The notes beneath the pieces were generated by a model. The model was given only the letters and a program-made list of their open reading frames with translations, did not search any database and had not been told where the DNA came from. This document shows, in pieces, positions 3,006-49,019 of a DNA stretch of 64,000 bases; position 1 is the first letter of the stretch, and every line of letters starts with the position of its first letter. The DNA is from Chryseobacterium joostei. GTDB lineage: Bacteria; Bacteroidota; Bacteroidia; Flavobacteriales; Weeksellaceae. The position numbers and the translations under genes are program-made. Location of the stretch: NCBI RefSeq assembly GCF_003815775.1, contig NZ_CP033926.1:3224001-3288000 (forward strand). The letters are read 5' to 3'.

Positions 3006-3167
3006 TTAGCATGCAAAAACAGAGCATCTTCCAAATTGGTTTCTGCACATGTTCCATCCGCATCCATCATCTTCAAATGGATCTTTTATCATTAATCCTC
3101 CTCCGACTTTCTTTTGCTCGTCTCTGGTCAATTTTTTTAGTTCTTTTAACTTGGTTTGTTTTTTCAT
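3006..3167 (-). CDS. double-glycine-leader Cys-rich peptide, 53 aa
   Basis: This gene is too short for ordinary gene callers. The 53-residue product has a charged leader with KKLTRDEQKKVGGG ending at residue 24, the pattern L-T/S-x-x-E-x-x-x-(I/V)-x-G-G of class II bacteriocin/ComC-type leaders. The remaining peptide of about 29 residues carries four Cys (CGWNMC, GRC, FAC) and ends in Cys. It belongs to the same leader family as the four-peptide array at 46.96-47.72 kb, but its core differs: no terminal CC. A near-consensus promoter lies at 3233-3263. No maturation protease, ABC exporter or modifying enzyme is adjacent. It is divergent from a LytS-type kinase. Bacteriocin, signal and RiPP are all open possibilities. 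Confidence 0.75.
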   Translation of the reverse strand: MKKQTKLKELKKLTRDEQKKVGGGLMIKDPFEDDGCGWNMCRNQFGRCSVFAC

Positions 3168-11657: not shown

Positions 11658-12845
11658 CTACGAAATCACTCCGCTTCCGATCAGTTCATCATCAATATAC
11701 CATGATGCAAACTGTCCCTCAGCAATGGCTGACTGTGGCTCTTCAAATTCAACGTAAAAACCATCTTCAAACTGATAGAGAGTGGCTTTCTGTAAAGACT
11801 GTCTGTATCTGAATCTTGCCAATACCTCCATAGACTCACCATTGTTCAGTTTCATGTCTTCACGAACCCAGTGCAATTCAGAATTGTCAATTTTTAAAGC
11901 TTTTTTATAAAGACCAGGGAATTGATTTCCTTCTCCTACAAAAATAATATTGTTTTCCATGTCTCTGGATACGATAAAGCAGCTTTCTTTATGTCCGCCA
12001 ATACCAAGTCCTCTACTTTGTCCGATGGTGAAAAACTGAGCACCTTGATGCTTTCCGATTACCTTTCCGTCGGTCTTTTTATAGTTGATTTTTCTTGAAA
12101 GAAATTCAAGTTCCTCTTTCTTTGAAGAGAATTCAGGTTTTTCTTCTGCAAATAATGGTGAATCTTTGAAAATCTCAACAATTTCACCTTCATTCGGCTT
12201 AAGCTGTTGTTGTAAGAACTGTGGAAGGCTTACTTTTCCAATGAAGCACAATCCCTGAGAATCCTTTTTATCTGCCGTTACCAGGCCTATTTCTTTCGCA
12301 ATCTCTCTTACCTGGGGCTTTGTAAGCTCTCCAATCGGGAATAGGGCTTTAGATAGCTGATCCTGGCTTAGCTGGCAAAGAAAATAAGATTGATCCTTAT
12401 TGTTATCTTTTCCGGCTAAAAGATGAAAGATTTCCTTTCCGTTTTCATCAATAGTGGAGTCTACTCTTGCATAATGTCCCGTAGCCACTTTATCAGCACC
12501 TAAAGACATTGCTGTTTTCATAAAGACATCGAATTTTACTTCTCTGTTACACAAAACATCAGGGTTGGGAGTTCTTCCTTTTTGATACTCATCGAACATG
12601 TAATCTACAATACGTTCTTTGTAAAGGTCACTCATATCTATAACCTGGAAAGGAATACCCAACTTCTGGGCAACCATCAGGGCATCATTACTGTCCTCAA
12701 TCCAAGGACACTCATCTTCTAATGTTACGGAAGCATCATTCCAGTTTCTCATAAACAGGGCAACTACTTCATGACCTTGTTGTTGTAACAAATATGCTGT
12801 AACACTTGAATCTACACCTCCGGAGAGGCCTACTACTACTTTCAT
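11658..12845 (-). CDS. mnmA: tRNA-specific 2-thiouridylase MnmA
   Basis: Cytosolic enzyme that thiolates U34 at C2 in tRNA-Lys, -Glu and -Gln using ATP and a relayed persulfide. The PP-loop ATP motif SGGVDSS is at residues 8-14, the first catalytic Cys at C99 (PDVLCNRE), and the second in GLCFIGKV (C200). 395 aa is the usual bacterial range (about 360-400). A -7-like TATTTTTG lies upstream on the minus strand at 12903-12896. It is encoded alone. Confidence 0.95.
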
Positions 12846-13057
12846 TTTATTTCAATTTTACGAAACTCTTAACGGGAGTTCTTAGTTTGACCCGGCAAAA
12901 ATACAACTAAAAAAATTCGTAAAAAAACCATAATTTTAAACATTGATAAAAACGATAGTAGTATAAAAGATACTGTTAATGAAGTTTTCAATGGAGAGAT
13001 GAGGGTGAAAATGATGATGATTTATAAATATCCTTAAACAAAATAAAATATTTACAT

Positions 13058-44334: not shown

Positions 44335-46926
44335 ATGGCAAAATCGAAGAAGGAAACTCCACTAATGACCCAGTATAATACCATCAAGGGTAAATATCCT
44401 GATGCACTTTTACTTTTCAGAGTAGGGGACTTTTATGAAACTTTTGGGCAGGATGCCGTGAGAACATCTCAGATTTTAGGAATTGTTCTTACCAAAAGAG
44501 CAAACGGAGACGGACACATCGAGTTGGCCGGATTTCCACATCATTCTGTAGATTCTTACTTGCCAAAATTGGTAAGAGCAGGCATGAGAGTGGCTATCTG
44601 CGATCAGCTGGAAGACCCGAAAATGGTGAAAGGGATTGTGAAAAGAGGGGTTACGGAATTGGTAACTCCGGGGGTAACGTTCAATGATCAGGTCCTAAAT
44701 TCTAAAAAGAACAACTTCCTGCTTTCTTTGCATAAGGAAAAAGAGAAATATGGGATTGCATTAGTAGATGTCTCTACCGGTGAGTTCCTGGTGAGTGAGG
44801 GAAATCTCGAAAAACTGCTGCATATTGTCAATACCTTTGATCCAAGTGAGATTATTTTCCAGAGAAGTGTACAGATTCCTGAACAGATTAAGAATAAAAA
44901 TGCCTTTAAGCTTGAAGACTGGGCTTTTCAATACAATTTTGCCTACGAAAAGTTAACAAGCCATTTCAAAACTAATTCTTTAAAGGGGTTTGGAATTGAA
45001 AATTTACCATTGGCGATTACTGCGGCCGGTGCTATTTTCGCGTATCTCGTGGAAGATACCCATCATAATCTTCTTGCCCATATTACCAAGCTTCAGGTTA
45101 TTCCTCAGGAAGACTACCTGATGATGGATAATTTTACATTAAGAAACCTGGAAATCGTTTACCCAAGCAATCCGCAAGGGAAATCACTTCTGGATATCAT
45201 TGATAAGACCTCTACTCCAATGGGAGGGAGGCTATTGAGAAGAAGAATTATTCTTCCTCTGAAATCTGTGGATGAAATTGCAAGAAGGCTTTCACTGATT
45301 GATTTTTTGAATGAAAAAGATGCTCTTAAATATGAAATAGCACAGCTGTTAAGATCAATTTCTGATCTTGACCGATTGATGGGAAAACTGGCAGCAGAAA
45401 AAATTTCACCAAAAGAATTGGGATATTTGCGCCAAAGTTTAATTAACATCCATAAAATCAAGGCTTTATTGCATCCTCATGCTGATGTGATGGCATGGCT
45501 TGAACCATTATTTGATCTTGAAGAGCTTATCAAATTCCTGCAAAATCATCTTAATGAAGAACTTCCGGTAAATATTGCCAAGGGTAATGTCATCAAGAAT
45601 GATGTTTCTGAAGAACTGGACAGATTGAGAAATCTCCAGAGCAAAGGCCGTGGATTTCTGGATGAAATGTGTCAAAGAGAAATCGAAAGAACAGGAATTT
45701 CAAGTCTTAAAATAGATTTTAACAACGTTTTTGGATATTATATTGAAGTTCGAAACACTCACAAAGATAAAGTTCCGAGTGATTGGCTAAGAAAGCAGAC
45801 CCTTGTGAATGCTGAACGATATATTACAGAGGAGCTAAAAGAATATGAAAGCCAGATTCTAGGCGCCGAAGAAAAAATTGGTGTTCTGGAAAGTAAGCTG
45901 TACAGAGATGTATGTGCTGAAACAATGGTTTATATAGATCAAATTCAAGGGAACTCTAATATCATAGCACAATTGGATGTAGCTGCTGGATTATCCGAAC
46001 TAGCTGTTTCAGAGAGTTATACAAAACCTATTTTGAATGATGGATATGCCATTGATCTAAAGGAAGCAAGACACCCGATCATTGAAAATGCTCTTCCATT
46101 GGGAGAAAAATATATCCCGAATGATATCTTTTTAGATAAAGATTCTCAGCAGATCATTATGGTTACAGGACCAAACATGGCCGGTAAGTCGGCAATTCTG
46201 CGTCAGACGGCTATTGTGTGCCTTTTGGCTCAGATTGGTAGCTTTGTGCCTGCGAAACATGCAGAGATCGGATTATTGGATAAGATATTTACAAGAGTGG
46301 GAGCCACAGATAATATTTCAGCAGGTGAATCCACATTCATGGTGGAAATGAACGAGGCGGCTAACATTCTGAATAATATTTCTGAACGAAGCCTTATCCT
46401 TCTGGATGAGATTGGCCGTGGAACGTCTACTTATGACGGAGTTTCCATTGCATGGGCCATTGCAGAATATCTTCACCAGCATCCTACACAGGCGAAAACC
46501 TTATTTGCCACTCATTATCATGAGTTAAATGAAATGACTGTGAATTTTGAGCGAGTGAAGAACTTTCACGTATCCATTCAGGAAAACAAAGGGAATATTA
46601 TTTTCTTAAGAAAGTTGGTTCCCGGGGGTAGTGAGCATAGTTTCGGTATTCATGTTGCAAAACTGGCGGGTATGCCTGCGAAAGTGGTGAACAGAGCAAA
46701 CGAAATCCTTAAAACCCTTGAAGCCAGCAGAACGCAGGGAAATAATGGGACATCTGAAAGTATTAAAAGGGTAACTGAAGAAAATATGCAGCTTTCTTTC
46801 TTCCAGCTGGATGACCCCGTTTTGGAGAATATCCGTGAAGAACTTACGAAGATTGACATTAATACCTTAACACCTATAGAAGCTTTAATGAAGCTGAATG
46901 CCATAAAAAAAATGATTGGAAAATAA
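44335..46926 (+). CDS. mutS: DNA mismatch repair protein MutS
   Basis: Recognises mispairs and starts repair with MutL. N-terminal mismatch domain has the F-x-E pair (VGDFYETFGQDA, F-Y-E), then connector, core and clamp regions, and the ATPase: Walker A GPNMAGKSAILRQ near residue 613, ERSLILLDEIGRGTST (Walker B/signature) and FATHYHELNEM. 863 aa is typical. A strong bidirectional terminator ends it. It is not part of an operon. Confidence 0.96.
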   Translation: MAKSKKETPLMTQYNTIKGKYPDALLLFRVGDFYETFGQDAVRTSQILGIVLTKRANGDGHIELAGFPHHSVDSYLPKLVRAGMRVAICDQLEDPKMVKGIVKRGVTELVTPGVTFNDQVLNSKKNNFLLSLHKEKEKYGIALVDVSTGEFLVSEGNLEKLLHIVNTFDPSEIIFQRSVQIPEQIKNKNAFKLEDWAFQYNFAYEKLTSHFKTNSLKGFGIENLPLAITAAGAIFAYLVEDTHHNLLAHITKLQVIPQEDYLMMDNFTLRNLEIVYPSNPQGKSLLDIIDKTSTPMGGRLLRRRIILPLKSVDEIARRLSLIDFLNEKDALKYEIAQLLRSISDLDRLMGKLAAEKISPKELGYLRQSLINIHKIKALLHPHADVMAWLEPLFDLEELIKFLQNHLNEELPVNIAKGNVIKNDVSEELDRLRNLQSKGRGFLDEMCQREIERTGISSLKIDFNNVFGYYIEVRNTHKDKVPSDWLRKQTLVNAERYITEELKEYESQILGAEEKIGVLESKLYRDVCAETMVYIDQIQGNSNIIAQLDVAAGLSELAVSESYTKPILNDGYAIDLKEARHPIIENALPLGEKYIPNDIFLDKDSQQIIMVTGPNMAGKSAILRQTAIVCLLAQIGSFVPAKHAEIGLLDKIFTRVGATDNISAGESTFMVEMNEAANILNNISERSLILLDEIGRGTSTYDGVSIAWAIAEYLHQHPTQAKTLFATHYHELNEMTVNFERVKNFHVSIQENKGNIIFLRKLVPGGSEHSFGIHVAKLAGMPAKVVNRANEILKTLEASRTQGNNGTSESIKRVTEENMQLSFFQLDDPVLENIREELTKIDINTLTPIEALMKLNAIKKMIGK

Positions 46927-46962: not shown

Positions 46963-47121
46963 CTAGCAACAGTATCCGTTTTTTCCAACAGGACCTATAA
47001 TAAGGAAATGGCCTACTCCTCGAAGTTTACATAAACCTTCTGCACAGTTGGCAGCACCTCCATTAATTTCTTTCAGCTCGCTTTTGGTAAGTTTGCGTTT
47101 CTGACTACTTAACTTTTTCAT
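46963..47121 (-). CDS. GG-leader Cys-rich peptide, 52 aa (array member 4)
   Basis: Leader of 22 aa ends in KLTKSELKEINGG. The 30-aa core has four Cys: NCAEGLC near the start and a terminal YCC. The motif C-x4-C...GYCC is shared with members 1 and 2. The ATG at 47121 is chosen because all array members begin MKK and have a 22-aa leader. Last gene of the four-gene operon; its stop is TAG. No exporter is nearby. Confidence 0.8.
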   Translation of the reverse strand: MKKLSSQKRKLTKSELKEINGGAANCAEGLCKLRGVGHFLIIGPVGKNGYCC

Positions 47122-47150
47122 ATGATTTTGAATTTGGTTACAGATGTCTT

Positions 47151-47315
47151 TTAGCAACAAGGCCCATCCTGAATACCCGGAACTCCTGATTTTTCTATTC
47201 CGGTCTTCATATCTGTACAGCTTATTACTCGAGGGCAGACAGGTCTAAGACCGCCGCTGATCTCTTTTAATTCCTTTTTGGAAAGCTTTCTTTGTGGTAG
47301 AGTTGACTTTTTCAT
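47151..47315 (-). CDS. GG-leader Cys-rich peptide, 54 aa (array member 3)
   Basis: Leader MKKSTLPQRKLSKKELKEISGG, 22 aa. The core of 32 aa begins LRPVCPRVISC and ends DGPCC, keeping two Cys near the start (C-x5-C) and the terminal CC pair, but the middle (TDMKTGIEKSG) differs from its neighbours. 29 bp before the next gene. The leader is well conserved, the core is variable, the pattern expected for secreted peptides under diversification. Confidence 0.8.
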   Translation of the reverse strand: MKKSTLPQRKLSKKELKEISGGLRPVCPRVISCTDMKTGIEKSGVPGIQDGPCC

Positions 47316-47362
47316 AGTAGTTTTAATTTTCTGATTGTCAGATATTAATAAATTATTGTCTA

Positions 47363-47524
47363 TTAGCAGCAATAGCCATTTCTGTCCATAAGGCCTAGTT
47401 GTACCTCATTAGACCCTCTTTCCATACAGAATCCGTCCATACAGATATCTGGTCCGCCACCTCCGCTAATTTTTTTTAATGCTTTTTTTGACAGTTTCTT
47501 TTGTTGAATGTTTAATTTTTTCAT
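47363..47524 (-). CDS. GG-leader Cys-rich peptide, 53 aa (array member 2)
   Basis: Read directly from the sequence: this short gene is easily missed. Leader MKKLNIQQKKLSKKALKKISGG (the E of E-L is replaced by A), then core GGPDICMDGFCMERGSNE... ending RNGYCC: two Cys at C-x4-C and terminal CC. It has its own stop and 32-47 bp spacers on both sides. It is the closest relative of member 1 (shared C-x4-FC-M-x2-GS-N/D-E pattern). Confidence 0.8.
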   Translation of the reverse strand: MKKLNIQQKKLSKKALKKISGGGGPDICMDGFCMERGSNEVQLGLMDRNGYCC

Positions 47525-47556
47525 GGTATCTTTTGTTTTGGTTGATTTTAATTAGA

Positions 47557-47715
47557 TTAACAGCAGTATCCATCTTCTCCTATAAGACCTCGTACCAGTT
47601 CATCAGATCCGGGAACCATACAGAATCCCCTTAGGCAGAATACTCTGTTTCCGCCATTAATTTCCTTTAATTCTTGTTTTGTTAATTTTCTTTGTTGAAT
47701 GTTTGATTTTTTCAT
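47557..47715 (-). CDS. GG-leader Cys-rich peptide, 52 aa (array member 1)
   Basis: First gene of the operon. Leader MKKSNIQQRKLTKQELKEINGG, then core NRVFCLRGFCMVPGSDE... ending EDGYCC. Two Cys at C-x4-C and terminal vicinal CC. The ATG at 47715 is preferred to the distant ATG at 47793. Divergent, about 150 bp apart, from the TlpA-like thioredoxin gene at 47866. Confidence 0.82.
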   Translation of the reverse strand: MKKSNIQQRKLTKQELKEINGGNRVFCLRGFCMVPGSDELVRGLIGEDGYCC

Positions 47716-47865
47716 GATAATTTTAGTTTGGTTGTAAGCTAATTTACATATTATTTTGAATAATTCAATAGGTGGTGAATGAAAATTATACAATAATTAA
47801 ACATTATTAACAAACTTTAACATATTGATAATCATAGAGAAAGAATGCATTTGGTAAATTTGAGT

Positions 47866-48354
47866 ATGAAGAATTTAATAAGAATATTGACCATCTTTTT
47901 GTTCTGCACGGTTTATAAAGCGCAGCAGACTGAGGTTTCTGTCGTCAAATATGAAGACCTTGAAAAAAGGATTCAACAGGAAAAGGATAAATTTCTGGTC
48001 GTTAATTTCTGGGCAACAACCTGCGCTCCGTGTGTGAAAGAATTACCACACTTTATGGAAGTCAATAATAAATTTGCCGGAAACCCTAAGTTTAAGATGA
48101 TTCTGATTTCATTGGACAGATTGGTAGATAAGGAGAGGGTTTTAAAATTTATAAAGAATAAAAATCTGACGGCTGAGGTTCTTCTGCTGGATGATATCAA
48201 AAGAATGAACACCTGGATTCCAAGGTTTGAAAAGGATTGGGATGGAAATATTCCGGTAACCCTCTTCTATAAGAATGGAGAAAAAGTATTTTTCAATGAC
48301 GGAGAAATGAGCAAGGAAGACCTTGATAAAACAATTAGTGAAAATTTACAATAA
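47866..48354 (+). CDS. TlpA-like periplasmic thioredoxin, 162 aa
   Basis: Signal peptide ends near VYKAQ (residue 20). Thioredoxin fold with active site WATTCAPC (C53, C56) and a LLDDIKRMNTWIPRFEKDW segment. Exported thiol-disulfide oxidoreductase of the TlpA/ResA type. The ATG at 47866 is preferred to 47845 since it starts the signal sequence; a TAAATTTG -7-like box lies at 47854-47861, which would give a nearly leaderless mRNA. It is divergent from the Cys-rich peptide array. Confidence 0.85.
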   Translation: MKNLIRILTIFLFCTVYKAQQTEVSVVKYEDLEKRIQQEKDKFLVVNFWATTCAPCVKELPHFMEVNNKFAGNPKFKMILISLDRLVDKERVLKFIKNKNLTAEVLLLDDIKRMNTWIPRFEKDWDGNIPVTLFYKNGEKVFFNDGEMSKEDLDKTISENLQ

Positions 48355-48362
48355 ATAATATT

Positions 48363-49019
48363 ATGAAAAATCTGAAAATTTTAATGTCGGCATTTATCGT
48401 TGGTTTGGGCTTGTTGAGCTTTACAACAACAGATCATGATAAAAATAAACCTCAAAAAGAAAAGACGGCCGCTGTAAAAGGCTATGAAGTGGGGGATGAG
48501 GCTGCTGATTTTAAGCTTAAAAATATTGATGGAAAGATGGTTTCCCTAAGTGATTTTAAGACGGCAAAAGGGTTTATCATTATCTTTACATGCAACCATT
48601 GCCCTTATGCAAAAAAGTATGAAGACCGAATTGTAGAGCTTGATAAAAAATATAAAGACCAAGGGTACCCAGTTATTGCTATCAACCCAAATGATCCAAA
48701 TGTACAGCCTGAAGACGGTTATAAACAGATGATTGACAGAGCGAAACAGAAAGGGTTTACTTTCCCGTACTTAGTGGATGAGGGACAAAAAATTTATCCT
48801 CAATACGGAGCAACAAAAACACCTCATGTCTTTGTATTGCAAAAGGAAAACGGAAAAAATATCGTAAAATATATAGGAGCTATTGACAATAACTACGATA
48901 ACCCAAATGACATATCTGAATATTATGCTCAGGATGCGGTAAATGCGTTGATAAAAGGAGAGCCTGTAAAAATGACAAAAACTGTTGCCATAGGGTGTAC
49001 AATAAAGGTAAAGAAATAA
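48363..49019 (+). CDS. redoxin/thioredoxin-family protein, exported, 218 aa
   Basis: Signal-like N-terminus (MKNLKILMSAFIVGLGLLSF), then an AhpC/TSA-type thioredoxin fold with the active-site CNHCPYAKK (C77, C80), a VIAINPNDPN segment and the C-terminal CTIK. It is a peroxiredoxin-like disulfide protein with two vicinal-type Cys. Eight bases separate it from the TlpA-like gene, so both are in one operon next to the Cys-rich peptides. Confidence 0.85.
   Translation: MKNLKILMSAFIVGLGLLSFTTTDHDKNKPQKEKTAAVKGYEVGDEAADFKLKNIDGKMVSLSDFKTAKGFIIIFTCNHCPYAKKYEDRIVELDKKYKDQGYPVIAINPNDPNVQPEDGYKQMIDRAKQKGFTFPYLVDEGQKIYPQYGATKTPHVFVLQKENGKNIVKYIGAIDNNYDNPNDISEYYAQDAVNALIKGEPVKMTKTVAIGCTIKVKK

Follow-up and report, generated by a model that had tools for sequence, protein, structure and literature searches.

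Which machinery would export and fold a group of small cysteine-rich peptides encoded far from any peptide exporter, and what would such peptides do? This question is raised by a locus of Chryseobacterium joostei in which four short genes stand in tandem between mutS and a pair of thioredoxin genes. The locus lies in a stretch of 64,000 nucleotides (assembly GCF_003815775.1, contig NZ_CP033926.1, positions 3,224,001 to 3,288,000), the whole of which was analysed and is referred to below as the window. Our analysis makes it likely that the four products are secreted disulfide peptides that are cleaved and exported by one exporter, shared by all such peptides of the genome, and oxidised by a fusion protein, the same machine serving about 40 peptides.

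The peptide array

The four open reading frames (ORFs) of the array are as follows; aa denotes amino acids and GG the double glycine of the leader. The types A to C refer to a classification over 40 loci of the same genus, which we selected from the 105 genomes that carry the neighbouring thioredoxin gene tlpA.

46963..47121, minus strand: array peptide 1 (type A), 52 aa, with a 22-aa GG leader and a 30-aa core of the pattern C-x4-C...CC; type A is present at 25 of the 40 loci
47151..47315, minus strand: array peptide 2 (type B), 54 aa, core C-x5-C...CC; type B is present at 29 of the 40 loci
47363..47524, minus strand: array peptide 3, 53 aa, core C-x4-C...CC; the typing script assigned it to no type
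47557..47715, minus strand: array peptide 4 (type C), 52 aa, core C-x4-C...CC; type C is present at 11 of the 40 loci

The original prediction, made from the window alone, had described four same-strand ORFs of 52-54 aa with gaps of 29-47 bp, cores bearing an early cysteine pair (C-x4-5-C) and a terminal CC, and near-identical leaders. The ORF list bears out the first of these points (gaps of 29, 47 and 32 bp), and the cysteine pattern is present in all four cores, three with C-x4-C and one with C-x5-C. The leaders, which are 22 aa long and end in I-(N/S)-GG ahead of cores of 30-32 aa, share 59-77% pairwise identity, for which 'near-identical' is too strong. Among 31 leader sequences, L11 and G21 are invariant and L16 and I19 are kept in at least 90%. 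ORFs of the array type number four in the real window versus none in 50 windows shuffled in 2-base blocks. With the NCBIfam profile TIGR01847 (bacteriocin_sig), two of the array leaders score 17.2 and 17.4, above the cut-off of 15.7, and the other two score 14.7 and 14.4, below it. A search of PDB sequences with the array profile returned nothing credible (tau, E 0.24; histone H3, E 0.84).

The exporter and the fusion protein

A GG-type leader calls for an exporter of the C39 type, which the original prediction proposed to seek in the whole genome. There is a single one, about 620 kb from the array, with one C39 domain scoring 127 bits against a Pfam cut-off of 22, and cleavage at the GG site and secretion are predicted from this exporter together with the leader type. 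The exporter cluster contains HlyD and a 502-aa membrane fusion protein. The fusion encoded beside the exporter consists of an N-terminal C39-like domain, a VKOR domain and a DsbA-like domain. Exporter and fusion lie outside the window and were therefore invisible when the original prediction was made.

The VKOR and Thioredoxin_4 domains of the fusion exceed their Pfam cut-offs, and the thioredoxin-type partner domain is DsbA/ScsC-like; against PDB sequences, the match of the fusion to 4nv2 is weak (E 0.024). Six redox cysteines (C175, C187, C254, C257, C366 and C369), which make up the VKOR loop pair, the VKOR CxxC and the CxxC of the thioredoxin domain, are kept in all 44 fusions compared. 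The first 110 residues are free of cysteine in all 44, and the C39-like domain therefore cannot be a C39 peptidase. In the AlphaFold model this domain has the C39 peptidase fold, and its best fold match is a GG protease solved with its leader. The fusion is 95% identical to its counterpart in C. aurantiacum. Across 296 genomes of the phylum, its profile finds matches in 31 (E 1e-15), many of which cover only part of the profile.

Two side observations concern the fusion. Several genomes of the genus, such as G013, G018 and G121, carry a second, distant paralogue (approximately 32-35% identity over nearly the full length). In addition, the intergenic stretch between the SPASM gene described below and the fusion gene (locus L002, approximately 12500-12970) is seen by eye to consist of three near-identical tandem copies.

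The genome-wide set of leader peptides

The array is part of a larger set. A search of the genome with the NCBIfam profile NF047798 (leader_Chryseo) yielded 43 places at E 10, 23 of which exceed the cut-off. After removal of one place inside a 438-aa frame and of one broken gene with a stop in its leader, 41 intact peptides were left. One of them lies in the window, outside the array:

3006..3167, minus strand: a further GG-leader peptide, the fifth in the window, 53 aa long and with 4 cysteines

The cores of these 41 peptides hold an even number of cysteines in 40 cases (4 in 16 peptides, 6 in 21, 8 in 2, 2 in 1 and 5 in 1), including the peptide at 3391572, which was overlooked by the counting script and whose cysteines were tallied by eye. 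The same parity is found at 80 fusion loci of named relatives, where 124 of the 128 distinct cores selected by regular expression have an even number (42 of 45 after look-alikes were collapsed). As a control, we took the remaining ORFs of the fusion loci that have three or more cysteines; 132 of these 279 are even, and the contrast is a lower bound, as these ORFs still include overlooked leader peptides, many with 6 cysteines. An earlier control that admitted 2-cysteine ORFs (391 of 539 even) was discarded since a cut at 2 favours even counts.

Five of the leader peptides of this genome show a C..C..CC..C..C pattern, which we take to resemble that of knottins. Three peptides with this pattern adjoin one another (L020/L026, C1:4552710-4553246, minus strand). 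The broken copy with a stop in its leader (L012, C1:3036025-3036072, minus strand) adjoins an intact paralogue.

Co-occurrence of the leaders and the fusion

Among 148 genomes of the same genus, 139 have a match to the fusion at E 1e-20, a figure that takes in any match, including the weak one of G052 (9.5e-33, taken as a paralogue) and those of G066 and G087 at 48% identity. Leaders were counted in 27 of these genomes, namely all nine without the fusion and 18 with it that we chose. The fusion-bearing genomes have 5-42 leaders each, whereas those without the fusion have none or, in one case, a single one (p 1e-5). Three of these nine genomes have no C39 domain, and in the other six the C39 domains score lower (best E 2e-28 to 4e-32, as against approximately 1e-36 in most fusion-bearing genomes). 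The array shows a similar distribution: its profile matches 93 genomes at E 1e-4, all of which have the fusion, and 75 at 1e-15, and none of the nine fusion-less genomes is matched. Eighteen of the 93 have weak matches only, which may be other leader peptides, and this association ignores kinship.

A quick mutS tree, which holds the three of the nine fusion-less genomes that have tlpA, places G010 and G056 as a pair (support 95) and G140 in a separate supported group (98) together with four fusion-bearing genomes. The supported branches force at least two changes in the presence of the fusion, or three if G052 is counted as fusion-less. Since fusion-bearing relatives thus separate the fusion-less G010/G056 pair from G140, the most likely history has two or more joint losses of leaders and fusion.

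From the features computed here, that is, the leaders, the even cysteine numbers, the single exporter, the domain make-up and conserved redox cysteines of the fusion, and the joint loss of leaders and fusion, we infer a route of cleavage, export, disulfide formation and docking. The leader of each precursor would be recognised by the C39 domain of the sole exporter, acting with HlyD, which would cleave after a GG, GS or GA site and move the core out. On the outer face of the inner membrane, the DsbA-like domain of the fusion would take electrons from the cysteines of the peptide, and the VKOR domain would hand them to quinone. The C39-like domain probably keeps the peptide, or else the leader, close to the oxidase. 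The same exporter and fusion would serve the approximately 40 peptides with a GG leader that the genome encodes, most of which have an even number of cysteines.

Several observations weigh against this route or against parts of it. The array is distant from the exporter, and the proposed link between them is drawn from the type of leader, from the presence of just one such exporter in the genome and from co-occurrence. The four array leaders score 19.3, 18.6, 15.2 and 20.7 bits with NF047798 and thus do not reach its cut-off of 23.5; the profile aligns to them only from its position 5 onward. The array is found mostly on one side of the tree and in a single genus, which makes its co-occurrence with the fusion weaker evidence than that of the leaders overall. 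Arrays are also present in G037 and G062 despite a fusion frame that is broken in the assembly; these breaks are likely sequencing errors, G062 being just 75% complete. Cysteine parity has an exception in a 5-cysteine peptide type (L018, C1:3062077) that is kept in relatives (L143, L146) and is perhaps a dimer or a peptide with a free thiol.

The remaining points concern the fusion. The assignment of its C39-like domain rests on the fold, because the sequence tests are weak: Pfam C39 matches the domain in 9 of the 44 fusions with a best E of 0.029, and hhalign gave a probability of 0.3%, which is not significant, from shallow profiles (18 and 4 sequences). The model of the full fusion is moderate (mean pLDDT 71, pTM 0.43). 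Its six helices, for which hydropathy support varies in strength, place both ends on the same side, so that in the model the C39-like domain would lie on the DsbA side, away from a leader that is cut off in the cytosol, and its docking role is unsure. If that side is the periplasm, the domain would hold the peptide there or touch the exporter rather than dock the leader in the cytosol.

Conservation and selection of the array

Array peptides occur between mutS and tlpA at 34 of the 40 loci, with 1-5 at each; 96 ORFs met the leader pattern, and exclusion of two that lie on the other strand or lack the terminal CC gave a total of 94. A second group of 20 loci, added for the tree and drawn mainly from distant relatives, showed the array pattern in two, which gives 36 of 60 loci for the genus. 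Outside the genus the family was not seen: a search of 296 genomes of the order (E 1e-6) matched 15, all from the same genus. The 94 ORFs contain 4 cysteines in 85 cases and 6 in nine, and their leaders are free of cysteine. Six recurring types, A to F, account for 91 of them, and three are unclassified.

Because the ratio of nonsynonymous to synonymous differences per site (pN/pS; Nei-Gojobori, 91 ORFs) is low within types A to F, the array ORFs are real protein genes. It ranges from 0.11 to 0.37 in leaders and from 0.14 to 0.32 in cores, these ratios being rough, with synonymous sites near saturation (pS 0.45-0.80). The ratio of the core is below that of the leader in types A, B and E and above it in types C, D and F. 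The original prediction had spoken of a conserved leader with a diversifying core; within the six types, purifying selection on cores is instead comparable to that on leaders. The variable appearance of the cores would thus stem from old paralogues, each type being conserved in sequence. In type F two additional cysteines co-occur, as would be expected for a disulfide, and this pairing may reflect a single event.

The neighbouring thioredoxin genes

The array is flanked by the following genes.

44335..46926, plus strand: mutS, the conserved left neighbour of the array, present at 40 of 40 loci; no functional link is implied
47845..48354, plus strand: exported TlpA-like thioredoxin (tlpA), with its start at 47845 or 47866; divergent neighbour of the array
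48363..49019, plus strand: exported thioredoxin-fold protein of the AhpC/TSA type; divergent neighbour of the array

The original prediction had correctly recognised both thioredoxin-fold proteins as divergent neighbours, and the TlpA-like one as exported, and it took them to fold or reduce the secreted peptides or to protect against them. Of that proposal the exported, GG-processed, disulfide-bearing nature of the peptides is supported; the partnership is not, and we regard it as very unlikely that the TlpA-like and AhpC/TSA-like proteins serve the array as dedicated partners in folding or protection. The TlpA-like neighbour is present in 105 of the 148 genomes, and strong array matches occur in 68 of these as against 7 of the 43 without it (p 7e-8, kinship uncorrected). 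This association, like the position of the array beside tlpA at the 36 of 60 loci, which were chosen by tlpA, is of the kind that linked neighbours would show. However, 37 of the 105 genomes with tlpA have no strong array match, and a tlpA orthologue (E 1e-20) is absent from 7 of the 75 genomes with a strong one, which shows that the thioredoxins are not needed for the array to be present. Among these seven, the loci L197 (genome G136) and L216 (G118) were inspected; both thioredoxin genes are gone there, yet these loci carry six and five array peptides, respectively, and the remaining leader peptides of the genome are located elsewhere than the thioredoxins. The VKOR-DsbA fusion beside the exporter is the likelier oxidase.

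Possible enzymatic modification of the cores

The cysteines could also serve as substrates of modifying enzymes, the cores being lanthipeptides, products of MNIO or radical-SAM enzymes, or graspetides made through a grasp-with-spasm pair. The genome does encode an MNIO-family protein (PF05114) and 15 radical-SAM domains, and a grasp-with-spasm pair adjoins the exporter:

L002 12992-15152, minus strand: SPASM and ATP-grasp genes of the grasp-with-spasm pair

This explanation is nevertheless unlikely. No LanC-type cyclase was found in the genome (PF05147, E 0.001), and the lanthipeptide route was rejected. The MNIO route was likewise rejected, as the only PF05114 protein is encoded at C1:268047, at least 1.9 Mb from the array. 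The grasp pair lies within the 6-kb flanks of just 11-12 of the 80 fusion loci, whereas leader peptides are present in every fusion-bearing genome tested. Disulfides account better for the even cysteine numbers and for the two additional cysteines that come as a pair in type F.

Relation to known systems

The individual parts all have precedents: GG leaders and the leader family, exporters of the C39 type, VKOR-thioredoxin oxidases, and peptide toxins linked to an oxidase. The bacteroidetocins (class IIf bacteriocins) of Bacteroidota, in the parts of their published description used here (PMC6671954), resemble the present system in their double-glycine leader, in their four cysteines and in an ABC exporter of the C39 type that is accompanied by a membrane protein and a thiol oxidoreductase. 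According to the same parts, they have a leader of 15-16 aa and a mature peptide of approximately 42 aa, and a single peptide is encoded in its own four-gene region (PMC6671954), whereas the present array is about 620 kb from an exporter cluster of comparable parts. The present leaders are longer and the cores shorter than those so described, about 40 peptides share one exporter, and the oxidase is a three-domain fusion. Leaders of the same type are collected in NF047798 as 'bacteriocin-like protein', to which the 23 genome places above the cut-off belong and below which the four array leaders fall.

The C39 domain of the exporter is shared with peptidase-containing ABC transporters (PCAT1 and its kin), whose fold is also that of the modelled N-terminal domain of the fusion; unlike in these, the additional C39-like copy is cysteine-free and part of a fusion with VKOR and DsbA domains. 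Bacterial VKOR-thioredoxin oxidases (the PDB 4nv2 group) share VKOR and Thioredoxin_4 as well as the loop and CxxC cysteines, to which the fusion adds the N-terminal C39-like domain, a DsbA/ScsC-like partner and a gene position beside a peptide exporter. TMcin, in the portion of its report used here (PMC13252029), comes from a cluster for a ribosomally synthesised and post-translationally modified peptide (RiPP) with a dedicated oxidase of the DsbA family, the disulfide being needed for activity. It differs in being a staphylococcal membrane peptide with one disulfide (PMC13252029), and it is likened here by description, not by sequence. Searches of the PMC library, which does not cover subscription papers, brought up no account of the array, of the fusion or of their combination, in which a conserved array far from the exporter and about 40 substrates go with a single exporter and a three-domain oxidase. 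The system appears to be a variant of the peptide-toxin systems known from bacteria, larger in scale and more centralised.

Possible functions

Killing, as by bacteroidetocins, and signalling are both possible. That the peptides are bacteriocins of the bacteroidetocin type, directed at related bacteria, is a serious possibility that we rate somewhat short of even. The architecture is alike in its GG leader, four cysteines, C39 exporter, thiol oxidoreductase and membrane protein, and the bacteroidetocin class is backed by experiments in the part of the report considered (PMC6671954). Against it, the lengths are unlike, with a 22-aa leader and a 30-32-aa core versus the 15-16 and 42 aa given in that part; the array has no operon link to the exporter; and the cores are conserved, most of them being neutral or acidic (the type means of the net charge run from -2.3 to +1.6). 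In these properties the cores look unlike typical cationic or fast-evolving toxins.

Such conservation could also be read in favour of intercellular signals or other conserved exported factors that are not toxins, which we put forward tentatively. Type A cores average 84% identity over 25 genomes with a pN/pS of 0.14, and several peptide types coexist persistently in the genus. However, the ORF list shows no recognisable gene for a receptor or regulator next to the array, and up to about 40 peptides per genome would be many for signals. The conservation of the cores, together with their mostly neutral or acidic character, suggests a stable role, be it signalling or narrow antagonism, rather than an arms race.

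Conclusions

The export of disulfide peptides by one exporter and their oxidation by one fusion, proposed above, may form part of a wider picture, to which we give an even chance: a centralised export-and-fold pathway of Chryseobacterium whose substrates, disulfide miniproteins that number up to about 40 in a genome and include some of knottin-like cysteine pattern, form a venom-like repertoire. In this picture one C39 exporter works with one fusion that couples substrate holding to quinone-driven disulfide formation, and the whole repertoire is lost with the fusion. If true, this would show how dozens of different disulfide peptides are made and folded in a Gram-negative genus through a single exporter and a single oxidase, and the fusion gene by itself would provide a genetic handle for switching off the whole set. 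Scattered peptides labelled merely as 'bacteriocin-like protein' would become a defined, testable secretome, and the C39like-VKOR-DsbA fusion suggests a way of joining peptide capture to oxidation.
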